41,857 nucleotides of DNA from positions 1 through 41,857 of the IMG/VR virus record IMGVR_UViG_3300025645_000153. One strand, written 5' to 3'. A model generated the notes under the pieces. It ran no database searches. It was not told where the DNA came from and was given only the letters and a program-made list of their open reading frames with translations. The position numbers and the translations under genes are program-made. Positions 1,760-20,358 of the stretch are shown in pieces; positions within the stretch are counted from its first letter, which is position 1, and the number at the start of each line of letters is the position of its first letter. This DNA is from a virus.

Positions 1760-1988
1760 ACACTTGTCCTGTTATGGGGAATACTTCTTTCTCATAAGTG
1801 ATATTTTGTATTATCTGTTTCAACTCTTTTACTTCCTCTTGGTGCCGTTCAAATATCTCCAGCAGAAAATAAGTTAAATCTCTTTCAAGATTTAAAGTCC
1901 TAGTCTCAGATAAAAATTGACCTACTGTACTTCTTGTGTGGCGAAGTTGCATATCCTGCATAGCTGCTATTGATGTTGCCGTTGTCAT
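1743..1988 (-). CDS. Hypothetical protein, 81 aa, helical
   Basis: Unknown function. Residues 33-65 form a long charged helix with heptad-like leucines (ERDLTYFLLEIFERHQEEV), which suggests a coiled coil or small dimer. The ATG overlaps the stop of the ABC/GNAT gene (ATGA at 1985-1988), so the two are translationally coupled. It could be a partner of that protein, but only by position. Confidence 0.6.
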   Translation of the reverse strand: MTTATSIAAMQDMQLRHTRSTVGQFLSETRTLNLERDLTYFLLEIFERHQEEVKELKQIIQNITYEKEVFPITGQVFDKYR

Positions 1989-3001
1989 ACTACCTCCTCA
2001 TTAGTTAGTGTCACACCACCTACATACTCATGGCTATAGCATGATCTATGAGCGTGTGTACGTTTATAACTATCTTCCTTCGTCTTCCTATCTGACATAT
2101 AATCTTTCCTTACAACCTTATTCTTACTTGTAGCTTTCCAATTATCTGATTTTTCACGGTGCTCTCCTAATGCTGGGTGAGCCGTCTTTGAGAAGAATCT
2201 GCCACCACTATCTACAATCATCTTTGCCACTTCATCTGAGATCCTACTTCCAATCCCCATACCTTGAAACTCTGGCAATACTACTGTCCTATGTCCCCTC
2301 CAACCATTCTTCCAATTACCATTAGGGAATGCAATCACACTTGTCATTGCCACTAACTTATCATTGTAGAATACACCCCAACAGTTAGCAGACTTATTTA
2401 TTTTACCAGAGAGATAGTGATGCTTTTTGAAAATCCCCCAAACCTCTTCTGGCTCACAAGGTTTGATTTCAAGTTTGATGTCAGATCTTCGCCTAACCAA
2501 CCCCCTATCAAGCCACTTTCTCTTGTCAGTGTCATACGCGAAATCAAAGTCTAGCCACTCAAGAACATCTCTATGGCACGTAGCAAGGACTAGGCTTTCT
2601 TGCTTTGAGCTGTTAATACTAGCACACAAAGCTCTAGCAGTATCTCTATCAACAACACTAGTGAACTCATCTATTACTGCGTCACCTTTACTTAAGGATA
2701 TGGCAATCTCTGCTCTATGCCTCTCACCATTAGATACAGATTCTAGAGTTCTCTTCCAGCAAGGTATAGAACGAAGCCCTGCTAATATTAAATACTTCTC
2801 AGCTTCTTCGTCAGAATTAAAGAGAGATACAATTGACTTATTCAGCTCAACATCTACACTCTCAGCACCCCACTCTTTTAGGATAGTGGACTTTCCAGAG
2901 CCACTGGAGCCAACTAATACAACCAAACCAGTCTTAGGTTTCTCTGGTATCTCAAATGATTCATCTACATCTACTAAGTCATACTTATCAAATATGTTCA
3001 T
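1985..3001 (-). CDS. ABC-type ATPase fused to a GNAT acetyltransferase domain
   Basis: Two-domain protein of 338 aa. Residues 20-165 form an ABC-family ATPase: Walker A GSSGSGKST (31-39), ABC signature SNGER (90-94), Walker B ending AVIDE (108-112) with a D-loop-like SVVDRD after it, and a switch histidine in ATCHRDV (143). Residues 175-300 look like a GNAT N-acetyltransferase, with the acetyl-CoA loop QGMGIG (246-251) after a beta strand. There is no transmembrane part, so it is a soluble ATPase rather than a transporter. The C-terminal 40 residues are basic with several His. ABC ATPases of this kind dimerise head to tail; a nucleic-acid or translation-linked role is conceivable. The substrate is unknown. 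It is followed by the coupled 81-aa gene and preceded by the cassette array. Confidence 0.8.
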   Translation of the reverse strand: MNIFDKYDLVDVDESFEIPEKPKTGLVVLVGSSGSGKSTILKEWGAESVDVELNKSIVSLFNSDEEAEKYLILAGLRSIPCWKRTLESVSNGERHRAEIAISLSKGDAVIDEFTSVVDRDTARALCASINSSKQESLVLATCHRDVLEWLDFDFAYDTDKRKWLDRGLVRRRSDIKLEIKPCEPEEVWGIFKKHHYLSGKINKSANCWGVFYNDKLVAMTSVIAFPNGNWKNGWRGHRTVVLPEFQGMGIGSRISDEVAKMIVDSGGRFFSKTAHPALGEHREKSDNWKATSKNKVVRKDYMSDRKTKEDSYKRTHAHRSCYSHEYVGGVTLTNEEVV

Positions 3002-3005
3002 CTAG

Positions 3006-3056
3006 TGATTACTCGCGTTAATTCGTGAATGTTTCCCGTGTTTCGTAGTGTTATGT
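3006..3056 (+). repeat. Degenerate attC-like site (array left boundary)
   Basis: The GTTATGT core at 3050-3056 is intact, and inner arms GATTACTCG and CGTAGTG can pair with a bulge. The outer core on the other side reads TGATTAC instead of an AAC-ending core. This is what a junction with a non-integron target, or a decayed site, would look like. It lies between the cassette gene ending at 3051 and the ABC/GNAT gene. Confidence 0.4.
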
Positions 3057-3338
3057 GTCTATCTTTGAAAATATACCGTCAAATATAATAGGCTCGTCAG
3101 ATCCACCCATCATATCGATCTTGGCAAGCCCGTCGAAATTATAAAGCCCACTCTCTAGCGGAATACTTGCTCCATTATGGAAAAGGTCATCTACATACCC
3201 AGCGTATTCATCCAGACTCTCTTTTATGCCATGTCCTGTATCACCTTCATAACTAACAACACATCCTATCCTTTTACATGTATCCCCTATAGACATTGCA
3301 ACCACCATCTTGCAGGGAACTTTCATTGTCTCGTACAC
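3051..3338 (-). CDS. Cassette gene: hypothetical protein, 95 aa
   Basis: Function unknown. It starts with GTG at 3338 after AGAGGA, and its TAA stop lies inside the core sequence ACATAAC of the boundary attC-like site. The composition is that of a soluble globular protein (Gly, Asp and Met rich, three Cys in the first 30 residues). It is the only gene of the cassette unit 3051-3422, and it is read leftward like the phage operon around it. Confidence 0.6.
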   Translation of the reverse strand: MYETMKVPCKMVVAMSIGDTCKRIGCVVSYEGDTGHGIKESLDEYAGYVDDLFHNGASIPLESGLYNFDGLAKIDMMGGSDEPIIFDGIFSKIDT

Positions 3339-3366
3339 AATCTATCCTCTTTATTTAATTAATCAC

Positions 3367-3428
3367 ACATAACAATGCGCTATATTTGATGCTTGCTGCG
3401 CGGCGCACAACTAAGCTTTGGGTTATGA
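3367..3428 (+). repeat. attC-like recombination site
   Basis: A 62-bp imperfect inverted repeat with cores ACATAAC (3367-3373) and GTTATGA (3422-3428). Inside them CAATGC pairs with GCTTTG (one mismatch), and the centre is a GC-rich stem (GCTGCGCGGCGC). It separates the 95-aa and 68-aa cassette genes; the stop codon of the 68-aa gene is inside the right core. Confidence 0.6.
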
Positions 3429-3629
3429 ATAACTTCTACCATAAGCCGCCTGCTCTGCCATACAGCAAGAATGGTCAACTGCTGGATCAGAAAAAACAGA
3501 CTCCCACACATAGCTATTTAACTCTACCGACCAAAACACAAAAACATCTTCCCTTTTTTGTATTTTCCGTTTTCTCTTGGCGCTTACCATTCTTATTTCT
3601 TTGTTTCTTAATCTCTCAAGGTCACTCAT
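3423..3629 (-). CDS. Cassette gene: hypothetical basic protein, 68 aa
   Basis: Unknown function. The N-terminal third is strongly basic (SAKRKRKIQKRED), and the rest contains aromatic residues and a Cys-Cys pair. Start and stop coincide exactly with the flanking attC cores: ATG lies in GTTATGA of the site at 3626-3697 and TAA in TCATAAC of the site at 3367-3428. No clear ribosome site is seen before this ATG. The opposite strand is also open between the same cores (3425-3631), but it reads like an antisense shadow rich in Leu, Pro and Phe. Confidence 0.5.
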   Translation of the reverse strand: MSDLERLRNKEIRMVSAKRKRKIQKREDVFVFWSVELNSYVWESVFSDPAVDHSCCMAEQAAYGRSYS

Positions 3630-3697
3630 AACAACGTACTCAATTTGATTGTCGTTCCGCTGGCGCTACACGCCAACAACTTAGTAATAGGTTATGC
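3626..3697 (+). repeat. attC-like recombination site
   Basis: A 72-bp site with cores TCATAAC (3626-3632) and GTTATGC (3691-3697). The inner arms ACTCAA and TTAGT pair if one C on the left arm is extruded, matching the extrahelical base of integron attC sites and giving a rightward polarity. The centre has a short stem-loop (CTGGCG, CGCCAA). Confidence 0.7.
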
Positions 3698-3700
3698 GTC

Positions 3701-3862
3701 CTAGTCTTTCTTTGGCTCCTCTTCAAACATAGCCTCGTACAACCCCGTAATGTCCCCAAAGTCATCAAGATCATGCGCTATATCACCTTCATGCCTAGCC
3801 AAATAATCGGCCATGCTTTTGAAATCTTTCACGCTCAACTCTATTGTTACTTTTGCCGCCAT
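3701..3862 (-). CDS. Cassette gene: hypothetical acidic protein, 53 aa
   Basis: A 53-codon gene, ATG at 3862 after AGGGGATTGAA, stop TAG four bases inside the cassette boundary. A basic and hydrophobic start (MAAKVTIELSVKDF) leads into a very acidic second half (HDLDDFGD, FEEEP). The size and charge resemble antitoxin-like cassette proteins, but no toxin partner is visible in the same cassette, so this is only a resemblance. Confidence 0.55.
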   Translation of the reverse strand: MAAKVTIELSVKDFKSMADYLARHEGDIAHDLDDFGDITGLYEAMFEEEPKKD

Positions 3863-3887
3863 TTCAATCCCCTAGTGTTTGTTTGAC

Positions 3888-3968
3888 GCATAACAACGTA
3901 ATCTAGTCACTACGCTGCGCTTCGTTCGGACTGGCAAAAAGCGCCAGCCGCTAATTAATAGGTTATGT
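3888..3968 (+). repeat. attC-like recombination site, best-formed of the array
   Basis: An 81-bp site with cores GCATAAC (3888-3894) and GTTATGT (3962-3968). Inner arms TAATCTAG and CTAATTA pair with one extra C on the left. The apical part has the stem CTGGC-AAAAAGC-GCCAG. Its right half, GCGCCAGCCGCTAATTA, is also present at 6163-6223, so the two cassette loci carry related sites. The TAA stop of the gene at 3963 is inside the right core. Confidence 0.75.
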
Positions 3969-4205
3969 GTTGCCTTTCCTTGTTGCATAAACCTCAAGGT
4001 GACTTACGTCCTTCCTAGCGCAAGATGGATCAACCTCTTCAAATTTTCGCACTATCCAACAATGGTAGTCATCTGAGTCACTTGCAGCAAATTCATCTGC
4101 CTTTCTCTTTGCTTTATCAATGTCAGAACCTATCCAAAAAACACCATGCAAATAAACCCCTTCTTTTTCTACAATGTACATAACAACCTCATTAATCTGA
4201 CTCAT
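3963..4205 (-). CDS. Cassette gene: hypothetical protein, 72-80 aa
   Basis: Unknown soluble protein with a beta-strand N-terminus (YIVEKEGVYLHGVFWIG) followed by a charged helix (DKAKRKADEF), and the stop TAA in the attC core ACATAAC. Start choice is uncertain: ATG 4205 has GGAG nine bases upstream but lies inside the attC site at 4178-4244, while ATG 4181 is within the GTTATGT core, which would be the start of the cassette itself. The frame is open further upstream through the site (to TTG 4226). Confidence 0.6.
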   Translation of the reverse strand: MSQINEVVMYIVEKEGVYLHGVFWIGSDIDKAKRKADEFAASDSDDYHCWIVRKFEEVDPSCARKDVSHLEVYATRKGNT

Positions 4206-4244
4206 TCCACTTCGCTCCATTCTCAATTTGTGTATAGGTTAGTG
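4178..4244 (+). repeat. attC-like site (array right boundary)
   Basis: A 67-bp site with cores ACATAAC (4178-4184) and GTTAGTG (4238-4244). The inner part is less symmetric than in the others, and it has a duplicated CATTC element (TCATTCCAC, CCATTCTC). It separates the cassette array from the beta-solenoid gene, whose stop is at 4249. Confidence 0.5.
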
Positions 4245-4248
4245 TGAC

Positions 4249-4581
4249 TTAAATAATATCCCCATTCACGGTAGTAACCTTACCTAGTATCTTTCGGGCA
4301 TTAACATCTCCATTAGTCGTTTTAACATCCCCTGCCACATCATCACAAGTTACTTTCCCGTTAGTGGTTTTTACACTACCTACATTGTTAGCTTTAACAC
4401 TACCATTTGTGTTCTCTAGTACGTCAACGTCACCGTGAACAGTCACAGCAATATCACCTACAAGCTCACCACTCTGAGTAACTCCATCTACTACAACTTT
4501 GTTTCCACATATTTGAATGTTACTTCCTGAAAAAGACTTTCCGTCAATTATGCACTTTCCGTTTTTCATTGTTAGATTCAT
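4249..4581 (-). CDS. Beta-solenoid repeat protein, 110 aa
   Basis: Likely a small right-handed beta-solenoid of the adhesin/DUF4097 type: from about residue 35 on, an approximately 8-12-residue repeat of the form G-D-V-x-x-x-N-G recurs (VKTTNGKV, VKTTNGDV, VTTVNGD). Such repeats are known from surface and scaffold-like proteins; its role in the phage is unknown. ATG 4581 is preferred because AAGGGG lies nine bases upstream; a GTG at 4587 overlaps the stop of the preceding gene. It ends just before the attC-like site at 4178-4244. Confidence 0.65.
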   Translation of the reverse strand: MNLTMKNGKCIIDGKSFSGSNIQICGNKVVVDGVTQSGELVGDIAVTVHGDVDVLENTNGSVKANNVGSVKTTNGKVTCDDVAGDVKTTNGDVNARKILGKVTTVNGDII

Positions 4582-4583
4582 AA

Positions 4584-4805
4584 TCACTTACCCCTTATCT
4601 GTGCTGCTAGTCCTACCTGATTTAAACCACCTTGTGCAGAATTAGCACATGTTCGTAAGCAAGCCGTTAAATCAATAATTGTATTCTGTAGATCAGCCAC
4701 AACTTGCTCTGTTATCTTTTCATCATAGGCAATAATATAGCCATCACTGCCATCATTACTTTTATACTGCCTTGATGCAGGTATTAATACATCTCTTGTT
4801 TTCAT
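4584..4805 (-). CDS. Hypothetical protein, 73 aa
   Basis: Not recognised. First gene after the promoter at 4839-4867, with GGGGGAC just before its ATG. Residues 32-65 look helical with several small residues and two Cys (TACLRTCANSAQGGLN). It is coupled to the beta-solenoid gene, whose start follows immediately. Confidence 0.6.
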   Translation of the reverse strand: MKTRDVLIPASRQYKSNDGSDGYIIAYDEKITEQVVADLQNTIIDLTACLRTCANSAQGGLNQVGLAAQIRGK

Positions 4806-4838
4806 ACGTCCCCCTATTTGTGTAAGTTAATTTACAAC

Positions 4839-4867
4839 ACTATATCACGTACAAGATCTATAAGCAA
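4839..4867 (-). promoter_or_regulatory. Sigma70-type promoter
   Basis: Minus strand -35 TTGCTT (4862-4867), 17-base spacer, -10 TATAGT (4839-4844). It sits over the 3' end of the gene at 4845-5237 and would transcribe the 73-aa gene, the beta-solenoid gene and possibly the cassette genes beyond. Confidence 0.65.
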
Positions 4868-5535: not shown

Positions 5536-5973
5536 TTATGGATGGAAAGAGTTAAAACCTTCTCCACTATTCCTCAAGTCAATATGTAGCCAGCTTACAC
5601 CTTCTTCTACTGTAAATCCATAGATATTAAACTTCTTACAGATAAATTTAGCGTTATCTTTAAGCCATTGCCTTACAACTTCAGATGGTACACCACTAAA
5701 CTTCATATCTAAAGCTCTACCTAATGAATGTTGGCTATAAGGACGATAATGCTTCTGTCCATATATGCGTAGGCCACTCTGATTAAATATCTTTTGCCCT
5801 TGTTTAGCATAGTGCCAATTATTTATAACTACGGAGGTATCAAACTGCTCACGTAGATAGTCTGCTAGTCGTAGTAATCTATCATCAATTAGCTGTAGTG
5901 ATCTCTCACCACGTATAGAGTAAGTCTCTTCTGATACAAATTCTTGGGTTTTGAAATATAGTGGTTTATACAT
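5536..5973 (-). CDS. M15-type peptidase, probable cell-wall lysin
   Basis: Peptidase_M15-like zinc enzyme of 145 aa, expected to cut the peptide part of peptidoglycan. The ligand pattern is visible: SQHSLGRALDM (His82, Asp89) and WLHIDLR (His130, Asp132), the H-x6-D and HxD motifs of D,D/L,D-carboxypeptidase-like endolysins. There is no signal peptide, so export would depend on a holin. The length is normal for the single-domain form. It starts two bases after the stop of a 49-aa gene and is far from the holin block at 40.5-41.7 kb, so an early or accessory role is also possible. Confidence 0.75.
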   Translation of the reverse strand: MYKPLYFKTQEFVSEETYSIRGERSLQLIDDRLLRLADYLREQFDTSVVINNWHYAKQGQKIFNQSGLRIYGQKHYRPYSQHSLGRALDMKFSGVPSEVVRQWLKDNAKFICKKFNIYGFTVEEGVSWLHIDLRNSGEGFNSFHP

Positions 5974-5975
5974 TG

Positions 5976-6125
5976 TTAAGTGGCTCCAGATTCATTAAGT
6001 AAGTCACTTAAAAAAGTTTCAGGCCATTCTTGATCTTGTAATAAGGACAAGTAAGTTGCCAGTTCAGCAAACTCCTCGACTTCTTTAATACCATTTACTT
6101 CTTGCGTTCTTTTATACTTAATCAT
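5976..6125 (-). CDS. Hypothetical protein, 49 aa
   Basis: Short acidic protein with a mostly helical composition (EVEEFAELATYLSLL). ATG at 6125 follows a weak AGGTGAG-type site. It is the first leftward gene after the inserted cassette at 6218-6691, and it abuts the M15 peptidase gene, with which it is probably co-translated. Confidence 0.5.
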   Translation of the reverse strand: MIKYKRTQEVNGIKEVEEFAELATYLSLLQDQEWPETFLSDLLNESGAT

Positions 6126-6162
6126 GCTAACTCACCTTTTATTTAATTAATTTAACTACTAT

Positions 6163-6223
6163 TTATAACAAGGTAATATAGTCGGACTGCTAAAAGCGCC
6201 AGCCGCTAATTACGACGTTAGGT
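6163..6223 (+). repeat. attC-like site, left copy flanking the inserted cassette
   Basis: A 61-bp site with cores TTATAAC (6163-6169) and GTTAGGT (6217-6223, a perfect GTTRRRY). Inner arms GTAATATAG and CTAATTAC pair with an extruded A, and further in CGG pairs with CCG past an extruded T. From TAAC onward it is nearly identical to 6639-6697, differing in a two-base loop shortening and one base of the right core. Confidence 0.8.
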
Positions 6224-6691
6224 GTCTCTGAACTCCACCTTCCTACTAAGAAGCAGAAAAGGAAAAGCAATAATGAACAAGGAAAATAATAAGATGGCAC
6301 CACTAAAAATGGCCAGCTCTGTAATAGTATTCTTCACCCTTGTTCTTGGTTCTGTATGTCTCAAATCCCAAGTAGGTATCTCTGAGGCATCTTTTGATTT
6401 CTTCATCATTGCGTCTCTATTTGTAAGTATATTTATCTGCTACTCAAATCGTATTCATACATTGGAAATTGCTAAATGTAAGTTAATCCTTAAAGAGACT
6501 AAGCAAACAGAACAGTCCGTCAAAGAATTAGCCTTAGCAGTTGTAGAATTTTCTGAGGCATCCAGTGGTGGTTTAATGCTAGAAAGTCACGATGCTCCTA
6601 GAAAAGAAAGAGCAATACAGCGTATTAAAGAGTTAACCACCTAACAAGGTAATATAGTCGGACTGCTAAGGCGCAGCCGCTAATTACGACG
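6218..6691 (+). mobile_element. Single-gene integron-type cassette inserted against the operon
   Basis: A 474-bp unit defined by the G/TT cut points of two nearly identical attC-like sites. It holds one rightward gene, whereas every neighbouring gene from 391 to 17,436 is leftward. The gene's stop codon is inside the ACCTAAC core of its own attC, the standard end of an integron cassette. Removing the unit would rejoin the leftward genes at 6731 and 6125 with one attC left between them. Confidence 0.8.
6273..6644 (+). CDS. Cassette gene: membrane protein with two helices, 123 aa
   Basis: Predicted inner-membrane protein of unknown function. Two hydrophobic segments, about residues 13-30 (SSVIVFFTLVLGSVCL) and 40-57 (FFIIASLFVSIFICY), are followed by a cytoplasmic charged helix (residues 60-123). 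ATG 6273 is chosen because GGAAAAG precedes it; a GTG at 6222 in the same frame lies inside the attC core. The stop TAA is part of the attC core at 6639-6645. It is the only rightward gene in the left half, so it must use its own or a read-through promoter. Confidence 0.7.
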   Translation: MNKENNKMAPLKMASSVIVFFTLVLGSVCLKSQVGISEASFDFFIIASLFVSIFICYSNRIHTLEIAKCKLILKETKQTEQSVKELALAVVEFSEASSGGLMLESHDAPRKERAIQRIKELTT

Positions 6692-6697
6692 TTATGT
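6639..6697 (+). repeat. attC-like site, right copy (59 bp)
   Basis: Cores ACCTAAC (6639-6645, a perfect RYYYAAC) and GTTATGT (6691-6697). The arms are as in the left copy, with a shorter apical loop (CTAAGGCGCAG). The 59-bp length and the two-bulge stem match the classical 59-base element. Confidence 0.8.
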
Positions 6698-6730
6698 GTA
6701 TAGTACCACAATTAGACTTTGATTGCAACA

Positions 6731-6892
6731 CTAATTCTCCAATTCTTTATCAATATTAAACTCTTTCCTAAACCTTTTATTCATTTTCCTCTTGATCTTC
6801 TTCCAGAAGCCAGCCTTCTTTAGTATGATACCATGCTTACGCCAAAAGGATACACAGTCATACTCATCACCGTTCTTTAGTTTCTGCTTCAT
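6731..6892 (-). CDS. Hypothetical basic protein, 53 aa
   Basis: Very basic small protein: residues 19-44 contain 15 Lys/Arg (FWKKIKRKMNKRFRK). Such basic tails are common in small phage proteins that bind nucleic acid, but no fold is recognised. ATG 6892 lies 26 bp inside the end of the preceding gene, in another frame. It is immediately upstream, in leftward transcription, of the inserted cassette. Confidence 0.55.
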   Translation of the reverse strand: MKQKLKNGDEYDCVSFWRKHGIILKKAGFWKKIKRKMNKRFRKEFNIDKELEN

Positions 6893-7389: not shown

Positions 7390-8577
7390 CTAACCTTTAA
7401 TGCACATTACTTGCTTAATCTCATGTACAATCTCTACAAGGTCTTTCTGAGCCTCCATTACATCATCAATAGGTTTATACGCAGACGGTGTTTCATCTAA
7501 CGTACTATCTGAGTTATTACACTCAATACCAGACAATGCCACCTCGTGTTCTTTAATAGATACTAACTTCTTAGCTTGAGTCCTAGACATAGTACGTCCA
7601 GCTCCGTGGCTGCAACTATTAAAAGACTCTTCATTTCCTAAACCCCTTACAATAAATGAACGCTCTCCCATACTACTAGGGATAATACCGTATTGACCTT
7701 TCCTAGCAGATACAGCACCTTTACGTGTAACCCACACATTCTTGTTATAGTGGTTCTCTTTCTGTACATAATTGTGATGACAATCTACTGACATTATTTC
7801 AGCATCTAATGTTTTAGTATGTTTCTCTAATACGTCAAGAGTTTTTTGCATCATAATATCCCTATTCATCTTAGCGAACTCTTGCGCCCAATTAACAGAC
7901 TCTACATACTGGTCAAAGTAAGTTGAATTTTCTGGTAAATAGGCCAAGTCAGAGTCAGGCAGGGTTACGAAATACTTCTCCATCTCTTCTTTGGCCTTCT
8001 CAATGAAATATTTACCAATAACATTGCCAACTCCTCTGCTACCAGAGTGTAACATTACCCATACTGAGTCATCATCCTTCTCTATACATACCTCGATGAA
8101 GTGGTTGCCACCTCCTAGTGAGCCTAAGTGGACAATATTATTACTACTATCCACTGGGCAATATTCAGATATCTTCTTAAAACCAGACGCTAGTCTGTTA
8201 TTCCAGACCTTGACTATACCTTCTGGTAATTGTTGTTTATTGTGCTTACCAAAACCTACAGGGATAATAGACTCTATTTCTAATCGCATATCCCGTAGAT
8301 TATCTGGAAGGTCACTCGCTTTTAAGGATGTCTTAACTGCTTGCATACCACACCCTAAGTCTACTCCTACAGCAGCAGGTATAATTGCTTTGCTTGTGGC
8401 AATAACACTACCAATAGCTGCACCTTTACCTAGATGTGCATCTGGCATGGATGCTACCCACTTATGGATGAAGGGTAGATCTGCTAAATTCAATAACTGT
8501 TCTTGCACATTATCAGCAAACTCTACCCCATCTACCCATGCTTTAACAATATTTCTGCTGCCTTCTAATACTTTCAT
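7390..8577 (-). CDS. rtcB: RNA-splicing/repair ligase RtcB
   Basis: GTP- and Mn-dependent RNA ligase joining 2',3'-cyclic phosphate (or 3'-phosphate) ends to 5'-OH ends, the ends left by tRNA-cutting nucleases. Motifs in order: MPDAHLGKG (44-52), GVDLGCGM (71-78, metal-binding Asp73 and Cys76), GGGNHF (155-160), LHSGSRG (176-182, metal His) and CSHGAGR (322-328, with His324 as the residue that becomes guanylylated). At 395 aa it is the length of the E. coli type. Its own promoter is at 8605-8633 and GGAGGTG precedes the ATG. With phage tRNAs nearby, a likely role is repair of tRNAs cleaved during host defence; this is inference. No archease partner is seen. Confidence 0.95.
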   Translation of the reverse strand: MKVLEGSRNIVKAWVDGVEFADNVQEQLLNLADLPFIHKWVASMPDAHLGKGAAIGSVIATSKAIIPAAVGVDLGCGMQAVKTSLKASDLPDNLRDMRLEIESIIPVGFGKHNKQQLPEGIVKVWNNRLASGFKKISEYCPVDSSNNIVHLGSLGGGNHFIEVCIEKDDDSVWVMLHSGSRGVGNVIGKYFIEKAKEEMEKYFVTLPDSDLAYLPENSTYFDQYVESVNWAQEFAKMNRDIMMQKTLDVLEKHTKTLDAEIMSVDCHHNYVQKENHYNKNVWVTRKGAVSARKGQYGIIPSSMGERSFIVRGLGNEESFNSCSHGAGRTMSRTQAKKLVSIKEHEVALSGIECNNSDSTLDETPSAYKPIDDVMEAQKDLVEIVHEIKQVMCIKG

Positions 8578-8633: not shown

Positions 8634-9726
8634 CTAAAAAAGTCTTATTTTCGTCCGTCCTTTTTATCATCCCTACTTTGTATGCTGCTACATCTTCTTC
8701 TTGAGGTGCTGGTTGAGTCTTAGAGATGTCTAGCCAATGTTCCATAAACTTTAATGGATTCTTGGCTGGCATAGTATATTTAGACTTAATACCTAACGAC
8801 CTGTAAACAGCTTTAGCGTTAAATAAAGTCCACTTGCCACATATCTCCTCATTAACACCTACTAACTCTTTACCATCTGCGAACATACCTTCCTTCAGCC
8901 ATACATGTTCAGAGTCTACTATCTCATCTAATACAATTTCTATCTCATCCTTGCATTGCTCTAAGGCTATCTTACCTCTTTCAGTTTTAATTTCTTGTTT
9001 AATAAGATCCTTCCAGAACTCTTTATGGACTTCATATTCATCTTGTGCAATCTTTTGTACAGCCTTTCCAATAGGAGGGAACATACCAGCTTCACATATA
9101 GCAAATGTAATTGCAAAGCTGCTCATAAACTGGATAGCCTCTAGTGCATACATAGTAGCACAGAATTTAAACACTGTATTGTATAACTCTTGAGTATTCT
9201 CTAGCTCTCCCAGTGCATATCTAAGACCTTTAATACGAGTCTCCTCAAACACCTTACCCACTGTCTCAAGACGTTGCAGAGATTCATTAATACTTAGTAT
9301 ATCCTGCAACACTTCTTCTGGCTTATCAAAAGACATCCTAACTATCTCAGAGTAAGTAGCAGCATGAACCACTTCATTCTCACAAACACGTAGTAGGTAA
9401 GCTGTCATCTCATCTGATGTGACAAATGGTGCTAAGATAGCAAACAACTGCCTACTGGCTACTGTATCTGCTTCCCATTGCCATGCGAGGGTTTTTATCA
9501 TCTTATCTCTTATATCATCTGGACACTGCTTAAACATAAGATTACAGGATGAGAAATCAAACTCATCTTCACTCCAATCTAGGCTACGGATCTCTTTATA
9601 GAAACCCCATATATTAGGGTGGTTCTTATGTATAGTATCAAATAATCCTTGGTCTTGTTCTCCTAAGAAGACAGGATTACTCTCGTAATCCGTCTTGGTT
9701 ATATTTAATATTTTACTAGGTATCAT
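8623..9726 (-). CDS. nrdB: Ribonucleotide reductase class Ia, beta subunit
   Basis: Small (R2) subunit carrying the di-iron centre and tyrosyl radical that starts ribonucleotide reduction by NrdA. 367 aa. Visible ligands: Asp87 region (WEADTVAS), Glu118 and His121 with radical Tyr125 (NEVVHAATY), Glu196 (YALEAIQ) and the C-terminal DEYEVH (229-234). The last motif has an extra residue between Asp-Glu and His compared with the usual DExxH. The C-terminus FLVDF is the expected peptide that docks into NrdA. The ATG overlaps the nrdA stop (ATGA), so the subunits are co-translated. Phage copies raise dNTP supply for replication. Confidence 0.93.
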   Translation of the reverse strand: MIPSKILNITKTDYESNPVFLGEQDQGLFDTIHKNHPNIWGFYKEIRSLDWSEDEFDFSSCNLMFKQCPDDIRDKMIKTLAWQWEADTVASRQLFAILAPFVTSDEMTAYLLRVCENEVVHAATYSEIVRMSFDKPEEVLQDILSINESLQRLETVGKVFEETRIKGLRYALGELENTQELYNTVFKFCATMYALEAIQFMSSFAITFAICEAGMFPPIGKAVQKIAQDEYEVHKEFWKDLIKQEIKTERGKIALEQCKDEIEIVLDEIVDSEHVWLKEGMFADGKELVGVNEEICGKWTLFNAKAVYRSLGIKSKYTMPAKNPLKFMEHWLDISKTQPAPQEEDVAAYKVGMIKRTDENKTFLVDF

Positions 9727-11993
9727 AGCTTACACACACCATCTTCACATTCTCCTGAATCATCGTCTAATACATCTTCTGTTTCATCATATTTAACTTT
9801 CTTACTTGTCATACTATTATAATAGTAGCGAGTCTTCATACCCATTTTAACCATATATAGATACTCCTGAATAAGTTCATCAGATGGAATCTTACTTAGC
9901 TCCACCTTCTTATAGAAGTCAGCAGAGATAGATTGATCACACCATTTCTGTAAGATAGAGTAAATATCAATCATATCTTTAACAGGGATATCCCAAGCAA
10001 ACTCATATTTATCTTTTAACTTCTCACCATCTGGAGCAGCCCAGTTAGTACTAGAACCATTATCAGATTTCTTTAGAGTTAACTCTCTAATAGGGTAGAT
10101 AGCATTAGTAGTCCCAGATGCCTTAGAAGAAGTCTCTGCTGGCATGAAGTTAATACAGATACTAAACCGTACACCCTTATTATCAATGATCTGTTGACGT
10201 AGCCCTTCCCAATCTCTTTTATTATCTACTGTAATAACACTATCAACGTTCTTGTTATAAGTATCTAAAGGCAACCAACCATCAGGCCACATAGTTTTAT
10301 TCATCCAAGGCGCGTTGCCATATTTCTTACCTAACGCAAGGGAGGCATTATATAAGTGCCAAGCATGTGTTTCAGCTAGTTCATGTACAAAGTCTTTACC
10401 TTCTTGAGAGGAATACTTCTTATCTTCTTTAGCCATTAAGTGAGCTAATCCCACCATACCTACACCAGCATTTAATCTAGCCAATGCAGTTACGCCTAGG
10501 TGTGGTAAACTCCACTCATTTTTATGTATGCAAATATCAATCATTAATAGTGCTAGGTAAGCTACTTTCTTATACTCTGCATCATTTTTGATATTAGCTA
10601 CATTGATAGCTGCAAGAGAGCATAAACCAATCTCACCTCTGCCATGATCTTCTGTAGAGTATAAGTCTCGCATATCATCGTATCCCTTAGTAGGACTGAT
10701 ATACTCTAGACATAAGTTACTACTGTGTACACTCTCCTTAAAAGGATTGTGACGATTAGCTTCATCTATCTGGAATAAGTAATGGCGACCTGTTTCAAAT
10801 GCCTCATCAAACGCTTGTAGTAATAAACTACGTGCATTGATAAATTTCTTTACTTTAACATGATTACTTACATACTCTTCGTACATACGCTCAAATACTA
10901 AAGGATCTTTACCATACATCGCTTCAAATAGTTCTGGTTCAGAATAGCAATCAAATACAGCAATATCTTCATTCATTGCAGCCTTACGTGCGAATAACTT
11001 ATTCTGAGAGAAGGCATAATCTAATCCTCTAATCTTCTTGGAGTCAGTAGAGCGTTGATTCTTCAAACGCATAATAGTTTCTACTTGAGGATCAAAAGCA
11101 TTATAATAAGTAGTACATGCTCCCCCACGTCCAGCTTGCTTATTAGCATTAATAGCTCCTACTAAGGCTCTATAATATGGCAACTTCCCGCTATGTTTAA
11201 CTGCTCCGTTACGGACAGGAGAGCCTTCTGAACGGGTTTTTACCATACCACCCATACCAGCACTCATGCAAGTCATAGTGTATGCTATGTGATCACCTAT
11301 AGCTAAAGACTTAGCACTATCATTTGTAGTGTAAATTGCACAACTTGCATAACCATTAAGATTAGTTCCTAGGTTAATGAAGTTAGGTGTAGGTGCATTT
11401 AATAGGTTATTGCTAAATACATCATACCAATCTTTAGCATGCTTAACTTTCTCTTCATCTTTAAATCTACTCTCAGCTAAGGCCATTGCCATACGCATAT
11501 ATGTAAATTGCTGAGTCTCAAACACTTGCCCTGTTACAGAATCTCGTAGAGCATACTTATCTCTGGTCTGTGTAATCTCAAAGTAAGCCGCTTGTTGATC
11601 TTTAGTGTGGTCAATGTGTTTATTTAATTCTTCGTACTCTAGTGTTGTGTAGTTAAGCTCACACATCAACCCTTTCTCTAGTAGTCTTTTGTGTACTGTT
11701 TCTAGATGTGGATGTTCTGAGCTGCCAAATACTTCTTTAACCATTATTACAGATAGCAACCTGCCTGCCATCTTGTTGTACTCCCACGAGTCTTGGTCTA
11801 GGCAAGCTCTAATTAAGTTGGCTTGTAGTTTAGTAGATCCACACTCTGATGGAGATATTGACACTGCATCCATTACTACTGTAGGCCAGTCTACCCGTTT
11901 TAACTTCTGTGAAGCCCACTCTCCCCATTTATTTAGTTTAGTTGCATCAAACTCTTCTTTCGTACCATCTCGTTTAACTACTACTTTTATCAT
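9723..11993 (-). CDS. nrdA: Ribonucleotide reductase class Ia, alpha subunit
   Basis: Catalytic (R1) subunit reducing ribonucleoside diphosphates. 756 aa, a normal length with no intein. An N-terminal ATP-cone-like segment occupies about residues 1-95. Redox Cys218 (YASCAIYTT) pairs with Cys458 (IGLCSLAA). Active-site Asn426, Cys428 and Glu430 are in SSNLCLEY. The radical-transfer tyrosine pair is in TRYYYNS (723-725). The C-terminal CEDGVCKL supplies the cysteines reduced by a thioredoxin or glutaredoxin, which is not encoded in this window. It is followed by nrdB in a coupled pair. Confidence 0.95.
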   Translation of the reverse strand: MIKVVVKRDGTKEEFDATKLNKWGEWASQKLKRVDWPTVVMDAVSISPSECGSTKLQANLIRACLDQDSWEYNKMAGRLLSVIMVKEVFGSSEHPHLETVHKRLLEKGLMCELNYTTLEYEELNKHIDHTKDQQAAYFEITQTRDKYALRDSVTGQVFETQQFTYMRMAMALAESRFKDEEKVKHAKDWYDVFSNNLLNAPTPNFINLGTNLNGYASCAIYTTNDSAKSLAIGDHIAYTMTCMSAGMGGMVKTRSEGSPVRNGAVKHSGKLPYYRALVGAINANKQAGRGGACTTYYNAFDPQVETIMRLKNQRSTDSKKIRGLDYAFSQNKLFARKAAMNEDIAVFDCYSEPELFEAMYGKDPLVFERMYEEYVSNHVKVKKFINARSLLLQAFDEAFETGRHYLFQIDEANRHNPFKESVHSSNLCLEYISPTKGYDDMRDLYSTEDHGRGEIGLCSLAAINVANIKNDAEYKKVAYLALLMIDICIHKNEWSLPHLGVTALARLNAGVGMVGLAHLMAKEDKKYSSQEGKDFVHELAETHAWHLYNASLALGKKYGNAPWMNKTMWPDGWLPLDTYNKNVDSVITVDNKRDWEGLRQQIIDNKGVRFSICINFMPAETSSKASGTTNAIYPIRELTLKKSDNGSSTNWAAPDGEKLKDKYEFAWDIPVKDMIDIYSILQKWCDQSISADFYKKVELSKIPSDELIQEYLYMVKMGMKTRYYYNSMTSKKVKYDETEDVLDDDSGECEDGVCKL

Positions 11994-13678: not shown

Positions 13679-13944
13679 TATTTATATCCCTCCATCCTAC
13701 TCAAGAAATCTTCCCAACTCTCACTATCAAACTCAGCAGCTTCATTAATTACACCTGCCTCTAATAACTCCACAACTTCCATAGCCTCTTTAGCCATACT
13801 ACACATTCCAGCATGAAATCCCCAATGATAATCTTTAGCATCTACATTACCTTTACGAATATCGTGAATGGGGTCTTCTGCCCACAACTTCATGCGCTTC
13901 TTCCACTTATCTAGCTTAATTTGCTCTTCTGTAGTATTGCTCAT
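13678..13944 (-). CDS. Hypothetical protein, 88 aa
   Basis: Unknown. Charged, helical and acidic toward the C-terminus (AAEFDSESWEDF), with a His/Trp-rich middle (DYHWGFHAGMCS). It is coupled to the nucleotidyltransferase-like gene by the one-base TAGTG overlap and has GGAGG upstream of its ATG. A joint function is possible from the coupling alone. Confidence 0.6.
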   Translation of the reverse strand: MSNTTEEQIKLDKWKKRMKLWAEDPIHDIRKGNVDAKDYHWGFHAGMCSMAKEAMEVVELLEAGVINEAAEFDSESWEDFLSRMEGYK

Positions 13945-13966
13945 TTATCCTGTGACCTCCTCTTAA

Positions 13967-14462: not shown

Positions 14463-14684
14463 TTACAAGCCATTAGGGAGACTCTGAGGGGATGTTGTAT
14501 CCACTACCCTCTTACACTCTTCTCCGTAAGCTTCCCAATGATAACTCCAAGTATCTCCACTGGTATCTCCCACATACTTAACCCTGCCACTGCTTCCATA
14601 ATTCTCTACAACTTCGTGTTGCTCTCCACAATACTCTATTACCTCACCTATTGCAAAGGGTTTATCTTTGTTTGTAGTACTCAT
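14463..14684 (-). CDS. Hypothetical protein, 73 aa, small beta-barrel-like
   Basis: Unknown. The pattern of short strands with Gly turns (EVIEYCGEQHEVVENYG, then GRVKYVGD) resembles an SH3/KOW-like small barrel, but no family is certain. The C-terminal 15 residues are Ser/Pro rich. It is separated from the next leftward gene by the hairpin at 14426-14447. Confidence 0.5.
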   Translation of the reverse strand: MSTTNKDKPFAIGEVIEYCGEQHEVVENYGSSGRVKYVGDTSGDTWSYHWEAYGEECKRVVDTTSPQSLPNGL

Positions 14685-14687
14685 GCC

Positions 14688-14870
14688 CTAATCTTCTATC
14701 ATATCTTCAATAACACTTGTAGCCAATCCTGTAACCTCACTAATAGCATAAATAGATAAACCTGCATCTACTAACCTAGCTATCTGGTTGTTGGTAGGTA
14801 GTTCGCCATCTAATAAGCCAGTACCTATATCTAGTGTGTTCTCTACTGCATCTGTGAAAAAGTTAAACAT
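14688..14870 (-). CDS. Hypothetical protein, 60 aa, helix-turn-helix-like C-terminus
   Basis: The second half (NQIARLVDAGLSIYAISEVTG, then two short helices) resembles a helix-turn-helix or UBA-like three-helix unit, so DNA or protein binding is conceivable. The N-terminus is acidic and amphipathic. ATG 14870 is preferred over 14876 because GGAG lies eight bases before it. Confidence 0.5.
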   Translation of the reverse strand: MFNFFTDAVENTLDIGTGLLDGELPTNNQIARLVDAGLSIYAISEVTGLATSVIEDMIED

Positions 14871-14935
14871 AATCATTACTCCTTTTGTGTGTTTGTAAAT
14901 ACTTCATTATCAATCTCCTCTCGTTGTCGTGTATG

Positions 14936-15977: not shown

Positions 15978-16752
15978 TTATCAACCTCCAGATACAATTA
16001 CCCCACTATAGAGAGGAGTATAATCATTAACTTATATTAACAATTAATACTACTGAAGCACTTCTCAGGCTCTCTATAGCTAAACTATTGATGTAAACAT
16101 CGCTTTACTTGTACTAAGTAATGTAATTATATTAACATACACTTAGCAACAATTCAAGTAAAAGTTACAGTTTGGCATAATTATTACTTAATAAGATAAC
16201 TGTTATCTAATAATAATCCTGTAACGAGTGTCGAGTTGATTCCGAAGAACCCTCCTCTCACCATGTTGTCAGGGTTGGACATTGCATGGATTTGGACATA
16301 TACTGTACTACATAGATTAGACTCAATCTCAGAGTTGGTCAAGTTTGTTTATATAGCGATTGCTTACTGCATTTAAAACCGCTTATTTATTATTTAAAAT
16401 ATACATAGAACAGGTGCTTGTCTTTCCAAGCTGTCAAGCTACCTACACTGGCAGGATAATAACGGGAGTCGCACCCTCTCACCTTAGTCACCAAGACTTC
16501 GCTACATAGTAGAATCGAACTACCTCCTCTATGTGTATTTTAAATAATCCTAGTTACCAAACGTCTAGGTACACTCTTTAATATACTCGTTTCCACCGCA
16601 CTCCTACCTATGTAGACGCAAATATCGTTGAGTGGTGCAGGGTTGCCCAGTTACTAGCACTCTGGGGATGCTCTATAGTGGCATCAGGATTACGTTTTGA
16701 TGTAAGGACTCTAAGGTCATTGCACTATACTCTCCATCAAGGAGTATTTAGA
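15978..16752. other. Long noncoding leader and tRNA-like debris
   Basis: No protein gene is supported. Near the GIY-YIG start an inverted repeat CTATAGAGAG (16006-16015) and CTCTCTATAG (16070-16079) could fold in the 5' leader, and a TATAAT-like element lies near 16130. Farther right, the minus strand has tRNA-type pieces: a good T-arm GTAGTTCGATTCTAC (16508-16522), a T-arm-like GGGTGCGACTCCC (16464-16476), and 6-7-bp stems closing loops of about 45 bases (TATAGTG/CACTATA at 16674-16731; CGTCTA/TAGACG at 16562-16618). None forms a full standard cloverleaf. It may be eroded tRNA genes or one or more structured noncoding RNAs. Confidence 0.4.
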
Positions 16753-16830
16753 TAATCTTGATGAGGATTTGAACCTCATATCTACTACCCCAGCAGGAGT
16801 AGGTGTTTTATCCACTTAAACTACAAGACT
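16753..16830 (-). tRNA. Atypical tRNA, anticodon uncertain
   Basis: tRNA-like on the minus strand: acceptor AGTCTTG pairs with CAAGATT, D-arm GTTT/AAAC with GG in the loop, and T-arm TGAGG-TTCAAAT-CCTCA. The anticodon arm is odd: CTACT and GGTAG close an eight-base loop (CCTGCTGG), or six bases if a further pair forms, and one extra base separates the T-stem from the acceptor. No anticodon can be assigned safely (GCT or TGC fit poorly). CCA is not encoded. Confidence 0.5.
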
Positions 16831-16834
16831 AATA

Positions 16835-16911
16835 TGGCACACTCAGCAGAACTCGAATCTGCAACCTATAGATTAGAAATCTATTGCTCTATCCAATTGA
16901 GCTATAAGTGT
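16835..16911 (-). tRNA. tRNA-Arg (TCT)
   Basis: Complete cloverleaf: acceptor ACACTTA/TGAGTGT, D-arm AGCTC...GAGC, anticodon arm ATAGA-TTTCTAA-TCTAT with anticodon TCT, T-loop GATTCGAGTTC and an encoded CCA end (16835-16837). It reads AGA and AGG, which the virion genes use for most arginines, so it fits the usual role of phage tRNAs in matching codon use. Confidence 0.93.
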
Positions 16912-16920
16912 ATTATTAGG

Positions 16921-16994
16921 TGAGCCAAGAGGGTTACGATCCCCCTTCTTCTCTTTATCAGATAAGACGCATTATCAATATATGCTATTGGCTC
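16921..16994 (-). tRNA. Atypical tRNA, possibly Gln (CTG), enlarged anticodon loop
   Basis: Acceptor GAGCCAA/TTGGCTC pairs perfectly, as does the D-stem GCAT/ATGC. The T-stem GGGGG/CCCTC is acceptable but the T-loop is ATCGTAA instead of TTCGANN. The anticodon arm has only four clear pairs (TCTT/AAGA) around an eight-base loop ATCTGATA, where CTG after T33 would give Gln. It may be a decaying or frame-altering tRNA. CCA is only partly encoded. Confidence 0.55.
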
Positions 16995-16998
16995 TTAT

Positions 16999-17074
16999 TG
17001 GAGCGGATAATCAGGATCGAACTGATGACCTAAAGGTTGGAAACCTTTCGCTCTACCGACTGATCTATATCCGC
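16999..17074 (-). tRNA. tRNA-Gly (TCC)
   Basis: Canonical cloverleaf: acceptor GCGGATA/TATCCGC, D-loop with CAGTCGG, anticodon arm AAAGG-TTTCCAA-CCTTT (anticodon TCC), T-arm ATCAG-TTCGATC-CTGAT, discriminator T and an encoded CCA (16999-17001). It reads GGA and GGG, both common in the phage genes. Confidence 0.95.
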
Positions 17075-17133
17075 TTTAAACTTACTTACTTCTATACTCT
17101 ATTATATACATATTTATCTACTCTTGTCAAGCC

Positions 17134-17436
17134 TTAATCATCATATATGTCAAAAGACTCCAAACCCCTTACTAAGTAATCTCGAAGCTCCCTAGTATAG
17201 TACTCCTTCCACCCAAAACCTTGAGGCTTTGTATCTCCTCCACCAAAGAATAGTCTAGTATTAGTTAGAGTCTCCTGCATTACATCTGCCCTAGCGCCTA
17301 TTTCATCTTTATAGTCCATAAGCGGCATAGACCCCTCCCCTGTTTTAGTAAGACTACCATAGAACTCTACCCGAAGTTGGTATTCTTGTACAGTAGTGAC
17401 ACCCTCTTCCCACAACAACTCTCTAATATTTCCCAC
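17134..17436 (-). CDS. Hypothetical protein, 100 aa
   Basis: Not recognised. GTG start at 17436 with AAAGGAG upstream, first gene after the leftward promoter at 17471-17498 and before the tRNAs, so it is probably early. It is acidic at the C-terminus (ESFDIYDD), with a Gly-rich middle (FFGGGDTKPQGFG). No motif. Confidence 0.65.
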   Translation of the reverse strand: MGNIRELLWEEGVTTVQEYQLRVEFYGSLTKTGEGSMPLMDYKDEIGARADVMQETLTNTRLFFGGGDTKPQGFGWKEYYTRELRDYLVRGLESFDIYDD

Positions 17437-17470
17437 AAGTACTCCTTTTGTTTTATTAATTCTTAGGTGA

Positions 17471-17498
17471 ATTATACATCTTACCCCCTAAAAGTCAA
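17471..17498 (-). promoter_or_regulatory. Leftward promoter of the divergent control region
   Basis: Minus strand -35 TTGACT (17493-17498), 16-base spacer, -10 TATAAT (17471-17476). It is about 35 bases from the GTG of the 100-aa gene, and it transcribes that gene and the tRNA cluster. Confidence 0.75.
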
Positions 17499-17556
17499 CC
17501 TTTTTGATAAAAAATACCTTATTTAGTGCTTTTTATAACTTTTTGTAATAAAACAC

Positions 17557-17586
17557 TTGACTTTTTATGAAAAATGTGTATATAAT
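17557..17586 (+). promoter_or_regulatory. Rightward promoter of the divergent control region
   Basis: -35 TTGACT (17557-17562), 18-base spacer, -10 TATAAT (17581-17586), in an AT-rich stretch. It is the only strong rightward promoter seen before the packaging and head genes. It leaves a leader of about 110 bases before the zinc-ribbon gene at 17706. Confidence 0.75.
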
Positions 17587-17705
17587 AAAGTATAGAAGGT
17601 AAGAAAAGAAGTATATCTCATCTACCTCACCAAGTCAACAGAAACCTTCCCCGCCTTCAGAAGAGAGGCACACAAGAGAAGACTCAAATTCTCAGGAACC
17701 CACAC

Positions 17706-17840
17706 ATGAACGAATATGATGATTGCATTGAATGCGGCTTATCCGTTGCTGCCTATAAACAGACAGAGCAGGTAGATGTGAGGGTATGTGAGTCATGCCA
17801 GATAGCCGCAGAAGCCGCAGAAGGAATTGAAGAAGATTAG
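17706..17840 (+). CDS. Zinc-ribbon mini-protein, 44 aa
   Basis: A 44-codon gene with AGGAA upstream of ATG 17706. Two CxxC knuckles, CIEC (7-10) and CESC (28-31), separated by 17 residues predict a single zinc ribbon, followed by an Ala/Glu-rich helix. The arrangement resembles the zinc finger of small DksA/TraR-like proteins that bind RNA polymerase, but the acidic coiled coil is missing, so that role is a guess. It is first in the rightward transcript, immediately before the terminase small subunit. Confidence 0.6.
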   Translation: MNEYDDCIECGLSVAAYKQTEQVDVRVCESCQIAAEAAEGIEED

Positions 17841-17885
17841 CGTAATAGAAGAGTGGATGTACAGCTAACCTATAGGAGAAATTAC

Positions 17886-18248
17886 ATGACAGAAAAGAAA
17901 AGTACTAAGTTTGCTAAGGGTGTCTCTGGCAACCCTGCAGGTAGGCCACCAAATGCTAAAGGTAAGGCACTTACAGACAAACAAGTGATGAATTACTTAG
18001 GTAAGAGGACAGAGGATTACCTGAAGAAGATAGAGGAATTAGCAAACGCTAAAGACACCCCTGACCAACTCAAGTTTAAATGCCTTAATGGTTTACTAAA
18101 CTTCGACTTCCAACTCAGGGCTTCTGAGTATAAGAAGTGGTTAGATAAAGAGAAGTTGAAAGGTGAGGGAGGCAGTAAAGGGAATGAATCAGGTGCAGAT
18201 AACGATGCCTATACCCCAGTAATTAGCCTCACATCAGTTAAGAAGTAA
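17886..18248 (+). CDS. terS: Terminase small subunit-like protein (DUF5681)
   Basis: DNA-recognition component of the packaging motor, inferred. The N-terminus carries the DUF5681 signature FAKGVSGNPAGRPPNAKGK (residues 9-27), found in small terminase-like proteins; the middle is helical and the C-terminus hydrophilic. ATG 17886 is chosen for AGGAGAAAT just upstream; the frame is open 33 bases earlier without a ribosome site. It is followed by a 231-bp gap and then the large terminase, a normal order for packaging genes. Confidence 0.7.
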   Translation: MTEKKSTKFAKGVSGNPAGRPPNAKGKALTDKQVMNYLGKRTEDYLKKIEELANAKDTPDQLKFKCLNGLLNFDFQLRASEYKKWLDKEKLKGEGGSKGNESGADNDAYTPVISLTSVKK

Positions 18249-18479
18249 GTAAAGAATTAGCCTCACGGTGTACAAGTGACACCCTCTAAGGCTTACGGAG
18301 AGGACATCAAGGCAGCTTAGGTTGCACACTACTCCCTGTAGGCACTCCCTGCATTAACTTGTAAAGTGTTCATAGTAGTAAGAGGTGTCGGGACTGCCAG
18401 CATGGTTCGGTGGCTAGGCAGTCATTTATTAATTTTCCTATTGGTGTATTTGAGCCAGTAGTTATTAAAGGAAAGATGT
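18249..18479 (+). other. 231-bp gap between terminase genes with a strong hairpin
   Basis: No reading frame is supported. It contains a direct repeat AATTAGCCTCAC (18221-18232 and 18255-18266) bracketing the end of the small terminase gene, and a long stem in which GACTGCCAGC pairs with GCTAGGCAGTC (one bulged A) around an 11-base loop, at about 18393-18424. The hairpin is followed by AT-rich sequence but not by a clean T run. It may be a packaging (pac/cos) element, a small RNA or a partial terminator. Confidence 0.4.
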
Positions 18480-20021: not shown

Positions 20022-20039
20022 ATAGAAGGAATATTACAA

Positions 20040-20345
20040 ATGGCTTATCAACCAATCAGCAAGCAAGTAGATGGAGATCGTCTAGTTATATTACAACGAG
20101 GTAGTGGAGTTATTTGGGAGGCTGAATTCTTCTATGAGATTGAAAAGGCTATCTTAGATGGTTATACATTCCCTCTAGAAACTCTTAATAAAGATAAGAG
20201 TAGAGTTAGATTTGCAGGCAATCAGGCTAAGGCTGTGATGTTCAAGAAGAAGCCAAAAGTGGAAGTTAAAGCTCCTGTAGTTGAACCAAAGAAAGTAGAA
20301 ACTCCTGTAGCTAAGAAGCCTACAAAAACAAAGACTAGCAAGTAA
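20040..20345 (+). CDS. Hypothetical head-module protein, 101 aa
   Basis: The N-terminal 65 residues look like a small globular domain (ILQRGSGVIWEAEFFYEIE). Residues 68-101 are a Lys/Pro/Val tail (KPKVEVKAP, VAKKPTKTKTSK), probably disordered and DNA- or capsid-binding. Its position between terminase and portal suggests a role in packaging or head assembly. Family not recognised. Confidence 0.7.
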   Translation: MAYQPISKQVDGDRLVILQRGSGVIWEAEFFYEIEKAILDGYTFPLETLNKDKSRVRFAGNQAKAVMFKKKPKVEVKAPVVEPKKVETPVAKKPTKTKTSK

Positions 20346-20358
20346 ATAGGAGACTTAA

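Follow-up and report, generated by a model that had tools for sequence, protein, structure and literature searches.

Integrons are usually regarded as bacterial devices. Their attC sites are polar, a single extra base that bulges from one arm marking the strand used by the integrase, and insertion into a non-attC site (attG) leaves a bare GTT-type box without a full attC. Secondary-site insertion at attG by integron integrases is named in PMC12901181. Integrase-less clusters of integron cassettes (CALINs) in virulent phages have already been published by Qi et al. 2023 (PMC9892861); that article covers Pseudoalteromonas phage PH101, Tetrasphaera phage TJE1 and Polaribacter phage P12002L, and states that the attC sites of these phages were recombined by IntI1 in the laboratory, with a preference for the bottom strand. 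In Vibrio cholerae, attC bottom strands that lie on the lagging-strand template, as in an inverted integron, strongly raise excision (PMC11023631). Since CALINs in virulent phages were published in the 2023 article, the basic phenomenon described here is a further case and not a new one. In the available literature we found no description of a polarity rule for phage attC sites, of cassette exchange between relatives at one locus or of the sharing of attC sites without their genes.

The DNA analysed here (the window, i.e. the whole stretch) is a linear virus record of 41,857 nt with a tailed-phage terminase, the left part of which (~1–16 kb) is made up almost entirely of minus-strand genes. 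Judged from its sequence, the window holds two CALINs, which lie among the early minus-strand genes of a tailed phage. We infer that they consist of host-integrase-dependent cassettes in a phage-adapted orientation, in which the recombinogenic strand is the coding strand, and we consider this reading likely to be correct.

Methods

The attC sites were identified with a covariance model trained on 13 sites unrelated to this phage (five from the integron of Vibrio anguillarum, five from a Shewanella integron and three from a class 1 integron), which was run without filters on both strands of the whole window; a hand-written hairpin scan was too noisy and was superseded by this model. Coding strands in the window were assigned with a model that was correct for 99.7% of held-out 207-nt gene fragments. 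Two related contigs, L022 and L023, were found by a search with the polymerase-like protein encoded at positions 9723–11993 of the window.

Additional phages were collected with an attC pattern that is blind to gene direction, which gave PH101 and seven further contigs. To compare polarity among the phages, attC sites were located with the covariance model, and genes were assigned by a coding model made for each contig. Most of the contigs found in this way are phage by gene content, with DnaB and a DNA transfer protein in L054, PhoH in L055, ribonucleotide reductase and an exonuclease in L056, and a terminase and RecE in L059; L058 resembles part of an integron of Vibrio and was excluded when phages were counted. 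The tally of cassette orientations took cassettes with a best ORF score above 5, and its bacterial set comprised Vibrio and Shewanella arrays.

Results and discussion

attC sites and the two arrays

The covariance model matched five sites, all on the plus strand (15.6–40.3 bits; Table 1), and scored the rest of the window at 10.4 bits or less on both strands. This search of both strands had been proposed in the initial annotation, and its reading of the locus as integron cassettes is supported, the sites scoring as attC under a model built from unrelated integrons. A separate scan for attC grammar (TAACAA...GTTA with paired arms) gave five sites on the plus strand and none on the minus strand, and the scan of 200 shuffles of both strands gave a mean of 0.45 sites and a maximum of three; a chance origin of the sites is ruled out by the model and the shuffles together.

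Five attC-like sites had been claimed in the initial annotation. Three of these (3367–3428, 3626–3697 and 3888–3968) were recovered by the model, a fourth (4178–4244) is weak, and the one placed at 3006–3056 was rejected, having no left half, no model match and no attC fold; it marks the array border. Among the six sites now proposed, the one at 4178 is the exception that does not rise above noise in the model, and it is kept as probably a degenerate attC because its counterpart in the phage contig L006 (positions 4790–4853; 90.6% identity over 64 nt) scores 18.0 bits. A second array at 5975–6697, with two sites and two cassettes, was absent from the earlier list and has the highest scores in the window.

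Table 1. Positions of the attC sites, cassette genes and array borders in the window
Feature	Positions	Strand	Remarks
R'-like box GTTATGT	3050–3056	+	Left edge of array 1; holds the c1 stop codon
Gene c1	3051–3326	-	91 aa, inverted; coding score 0.37 per codon over the best other frame
attC site 1	3367–3428	+	24.0 bits, E = 7e-4
Gene c2	3423–3629	-	68 aa, inverted; ATG in R'' box, TAA in R' box
attC site 2	3626–3697	+	19.0 bits, E = 0.014
Gene c3	3701–3862	-	53 aa, inverted; from coding models
attC site 3	3888–3968	+	15.6 bits, E = 0.1
Gene c4	3963–4181	-	72 aa, inverted; from coding models
attC site 4 (probably degenerate)	4178–4244	+	Right end of array 1; model score below 7.9 bits
R'-like box GTTAAGT	5975–5981	+	Left edge of array 2; holds the 2a stop codon
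Gene 2a	5976–6125	-	49 aa, inverted; coding model 0.52 per codon
attC site 5	6163–6223	+	Array 2; 35.4 bits, E = 9e-7
Gene 2b	6273–6644	+	123 aa, canonical orientation amid an otherwise minus-strand region
attC site 6	6639–6697	+	Array 2; 40.3 bits, E = 5e-8; strongest in the window
Right flank of array 2 from R' box on	6691–6738	+	Alignment: conserved beside the last attC of L022 and L023

In anatomy the sites are attCs: they have R''/R' cores and L''/L' arms, the left arm carrying a single extrahelical base. The extra C that had been noticed in the left arm of two sites was seen again, as ACT[C]AATTTG in the 3626 site and AAT[C]TAG in the 3888 site, and an extrahelical base lies in the left arm of all five window sites that were scored, left and right being equal in shuffled sequences. 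It is also present in the left arm of sites in L006 (four), L007 (nine), PH101 (four), L022 (three) and L023 (two). In known sites the top strand carries the extra base in its left arm (GTT[C]AAG in aadA1), and its position at every scored site indicates that the top strand of all attC sites in the window is the plus strand. Folding of the bottom strands as free DNA, another check proposed at the outset, gave a graded result: z-scores were -2.9 (6639), -1.8 (3626), -1.5 (3888), -1.2 (6163) and about 0 (3367) for five sites and +1.7 for the 4178 site, which is no better than shuffles.

Alternatively, the hairpins might be unrelated to integrons and have a fixed regulatory role, for instance as terminators or in RNA processing. 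Their regular spacing between co-directional genes would suit such a role, and attC sites are thought to hold weak terminators according to PMC9892861. This explanation is highly improbable in the face of E-values down to 5e-8 from a model trained on integrons, an extrahelical base that is always on the left, the modest stability of the folds and a second array in which one gene runs against the operon, and it was discarded on the strength of the cassette exchange between relatives described below.

Cassette genes

According to the coding model, 2b is a plus-strand gene, and c1–c4 and 2a are read from the minus strand. With attC sites on the plus strand, five of the six window cassettes are inverted relative to their attC, i.e. 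the gene does not read along the attC polarity as it does in a canonical cassette; the initial annotation makes no mention of this inversion in array 1. The coding score of c2 was weak under a retrained model. As the initial annotation had stated, start and stop codons lie in the cores: c2 and c4 start at the ATG of GTTATG (R'' box), and the stop codon TAA overlaps a core box in c1, c2 and c4 and also in 2a and 2b. In the inverted genes the stop codon is often in the R' box (CATAAC in the sense of the gene).

The c4 protein has relatives in Vibrio breoganii phages (36% identity), c1 had no match in Pfam or PHROG and no phage relative was found for it, and 2b is predicted from its sequence to have membrane segments. 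PADLOC gave no defence match for eight cassette proteins, six of the window and two of L022, and single-sequence structure prediction was of low confidence (mean pLDDT 48 for c1 and 46 for c4). DNA methyltransferases occur in cassettes of related phages.

Genomic setting of the arrays

Twice in the 41.9 kb record at least two attC sites lie close together with no intI nearby, as in a CALIN. The assertion that the array stands without an integrase was supported, in that neither the integron integrase model TIGR02249 nor the tyrosine recombinase family PF00589 matched the contig, a linear record that may be incomplete, so that an integrase might be encoded elsewhere in the genome. A complete integron comprises intI, attI and Pc, and the contig is without intI or any other tyrosine recombinase; no integron integrase was present in any of the other viral contigs tested.

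Array 1 is bordered directly on the left by a gene (1985–3001; phrog_11143, function unknown), one half of which is P-loop ATPase-like and the other a GNAT acetyltransferase, and directly on the right by a gene (4249–4581; phrog_3163, function unknown) whose product repeats a TTNGDV-like motif. Endolysin genes adjoin attC arrays in the window (5536–5973), L022 (14615–15040), L023 (14337–14765) and L006 (10097–10507), and the endolysin gene of PH101 (L020 24802–25416) is two small genes away from its attC array. The array-adjoining endolysins of the several phages belong to different families, and their neighbourhood is possibly a favoured insertion place for attC arrays.

Four minus-strand tRNA genes (Arg-CCT, Arg-TCT, Ile-GAT and Gly-TCC) at 16753–17074 sit at the boundary between the minus-strand and plus-strand gene blocks. 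Positions 1–4285 of L017, a 4.3 kb contig from another metagenome, are 99.7% identical to positions 16651–20936 of the window, which indicates that this phage has been sampled twice.

attC sites in common with other phages

The attC sites of the window recur in L007, a lambdoid replication region with a DnaB-like helicase and NinB, and in L006, which carries ribonucleotide reductase genes and an endolysin. Site 1 is 98% identical over 60 nt to an L007 attC, site 2 is 94% identical over 70 nt to L007 1253–1322, site 3 has an identity of 93% with L007 over 76 nt and of 87% with L006 over 79 nt, and site 5 is 91% identical over 56 nt to an L006 attC. For array 1 the similarity to L006 and L007 ends at the core boxes, and no cassette protein is in common.

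No host integron with these attC sites was found; a scan of GTDB with an attC pattern gave a single match, in Pedobacter, which was judged to be due to chance and was rejected as a clue to the host. Searches with the second array in plasmids and with the L007 array in phages and plasmids gave nothing informative.

Cassette exchange at a single locus

L022 and L023 are both 95% identical to the window over the polymerase-like protein and 93% identical to each other across 3.4 kb of backbone, and at one locus both contain a pair of attC sites that encloses a cassette. The two are 88% identical in the left flank through the left attC, fall to 52% in the gene body (the value of shuffled sequence) and to 45% in the core of the right attC, and return to 90% from the R' box onward. 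Judged by this alignment, gene and attC have changed together. The sequence to the right of the last attC, TATAGTACCACAA...ATTGCAACACT, is common to L022, L023 and array 2 of the window, so that three phages have three contents at this place. Variation of a gene and its attC as a unit at a fixed locus, as expected of a mobile cassette, is shown for the array-2 locus.

The search for occupied and empty versions of the locus that the initial annotation had suggested succeeded in the form of alternative occupants at the array-2 locus; for array 1 no empty site was found. Three Vibrio phages that resemble part of 1985–3001 have no comparable locus, L003 has only the gene at 1985–3001 in common with the window, and no relative that spans the array-1 locus was found. 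An empty array-1 locus would show the junction ...TTTCGTAGTG joined to TTAGTGTGACTT....

Inside the exchanged cassettes of L022 and L023, the ends are alike, with a leader of ~35 nt (84%) and a short tail motif (77%), and because of this likeness homologous recombination could have made the swap. More generally, the sites might be true attCs by descent whose cassettes now move by homologous recombination of the phages at attCs, leaders and tails, with no integrase acting today. Mosaicism of this kind is known of phages, and attC sites common to several phages would offer short homologies. The core of the attC, however, differs together with the gene, as a unit of gene plus attC predicts, the similarity of array 1 to L006 and L007 is limited to the attC sites (60–79 nt), and attC pairing and extrahelical bases have been retained. 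We regard recombination of this kind as an unlikely account of the arrays, and integrase-dependent movement as the preferred one.

Further differences were observed around these loci. L022 contains near-identical attC sites at 8423–8489 and 13884–13950, 5.4 kb from each other. The cassette genes that accompany them are related (140 and 133 aa), and the first of the two places has no attC at its left edge. Two small adjacent genes at 14463–14876 of the window are in swapped order at 8243–9359 of L022, where a cassette lies between them. A gene of ~345 bp at 13371–13716 of L022, just past the right flank of the array and without an attC of its own, is missing from L023.

Polarity of attC sites relative to transcription

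The attC sites are directed against local transcription in both arrays of the window, at two places each in L006, L007 and L022, in L023, in PH101, at three places in L054, and in L055, L056 and L059. In L054 the direction of the attC sites flips between divergent operons, so that they oppose their own genes in each. P12002L (14.7 bits) and MW202573 (18.1 and 13.2 bits), both chosen by Qi et al., show the same direction, on weak model scores, L057 is ambiguous, and TJE1 is the exception, with attC sites parallel to transcription. With one vote for each phage, 11 of the 12 have attC sites opposed to transcription (two-sided binomial p = 0.006), a value that stems from few independent phages. 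Inverted and canonical cassettes number 28 and 6 in the phages against 2 and 14 in bacterial-type arrays (Fisher p = 3.5e-6). This test treats the cassettes as if they were independent of each other, although they are not, and a single interval of L054 contains several genes.

Cassettes that read the other way (2b in the window and those of L022, L023 and L056) run against the operon. L022 and L023 have a leader after the R' box in common, and PH101 has an identical leader in two cassettes; such common leaders may supply a promoter for cassettes that oppose the operon. In the PH101 array (L020 25919–27987), cassettes contain convergent gene pairs, two have near-identical tails, and the plus-strand cassette genes lack annotation in the record.

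The phage cassettes could also be a random sample of the cassettes of host chromosomal integrons, their inversion being due to chance or to a peculiarity of the integron of one host. Inverted cassettes do occur in bacterial arrays, as the two of 16 in the tally illustrate, and attC types common to the phages are what a single host pool would predict. The polarity rule nevertheless recurs in lambdoid and in large virulent phages that have different attC types, it is found in published phages that were picked by others, and the absolute polarity in L054 flips with the operon, all of which make random sampling unlikely.

Proposed mechanism

On the reading preferred here, the phage would infect or reside in an integron-bearing host, the IntI of which would fold and recombine the bottom strands of the attC sites, and cassettes would thereby be added, removed or swapped. 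As the contig has no recombinase and IntI1 is able to recombine phage attC sites, a host integrase acting in trans is the likely agent. The phage would then have acquired its cassettes in this way and may pass them on to host integrons, as the initial annotation had suggested. With the attC top strand directed against transcription and the genes reading with the operon, most cassette genes are inverted. Given polarity against the operon, the bottom strand, which is the recombinogenic one, coincides with the coding strand. Where replication and transcription are co-directional, the coding strand would be the lagging-strand template. We hypothesize that there is selection for high cassette turnover during a short infection, since a phage that meets an integrase only in this period might gain from sites that are prone to recombination. 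Canonically reading cassettes, which run against the operon, appear to bring their own leader.

A wider proposal is that phages keep a cassette pool of their own, distinct from that of bacteria and marked by attC sites opposing the operon, with the recombinogenic strand exposed as the coding strand, mostly inverted genes, codon-bearing cores and, in some cases, leaders and tails, and that unrelated phages exchange these cassettes through an integrase supplied by the host; this we offer tentatively, leaning slightly against it. If virulent and temperate phages do keep exchangeable cassettes with a systematically reversed polarity, cassettes would have in phages both a further home and a means of transport that follows rules of its own, and a fast turnover of small phage genes, including the DNA methyltransferases in cassettes, would be explained.

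Comparison with known systems

The phages of Qi et al. resemble the window in having attC-delimited cassettes with small unknown genes and no integrase in a phage genome, and the sites of PH101 score 28–41 bits under the same model, like those of array 2. The available part of that article (PMC9892861) stresses cassettes in one direction and does not report attC sites that oppose transcription, nor does it show a comparison of one locus between relatives or the sharing of attC sites between phages.

The sedentary integrons of Vibrio and Shewanella (MK672802 and MZ568829) have the attC anatomy, the polarity marks and the short cassettes with one gene each that are seen in the window, but they contain intI, and their genes read along the attC polarity in 14 of the 16 cassettes scored. 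The attC sites of the Vibrio array are ~100–130 nt in length, whereas those here are 57–81 nt. The left edges of both window arrays, being bare GTT-type boxes without a full attC, are like the product of insertion at attG; the window differs in containing arrays and not lone cassettes, and no empty site was found. In the inverted integron of V. cholerae, the more exposed strand is the one that carries the attC bottom strands, which is the state proposed here for the phages. In V. cholerae, however, the inversion of the entire array was made in the laboratory and is counter-selected (PMC11023631), whereas the polarity in phages is natural and recurrent.
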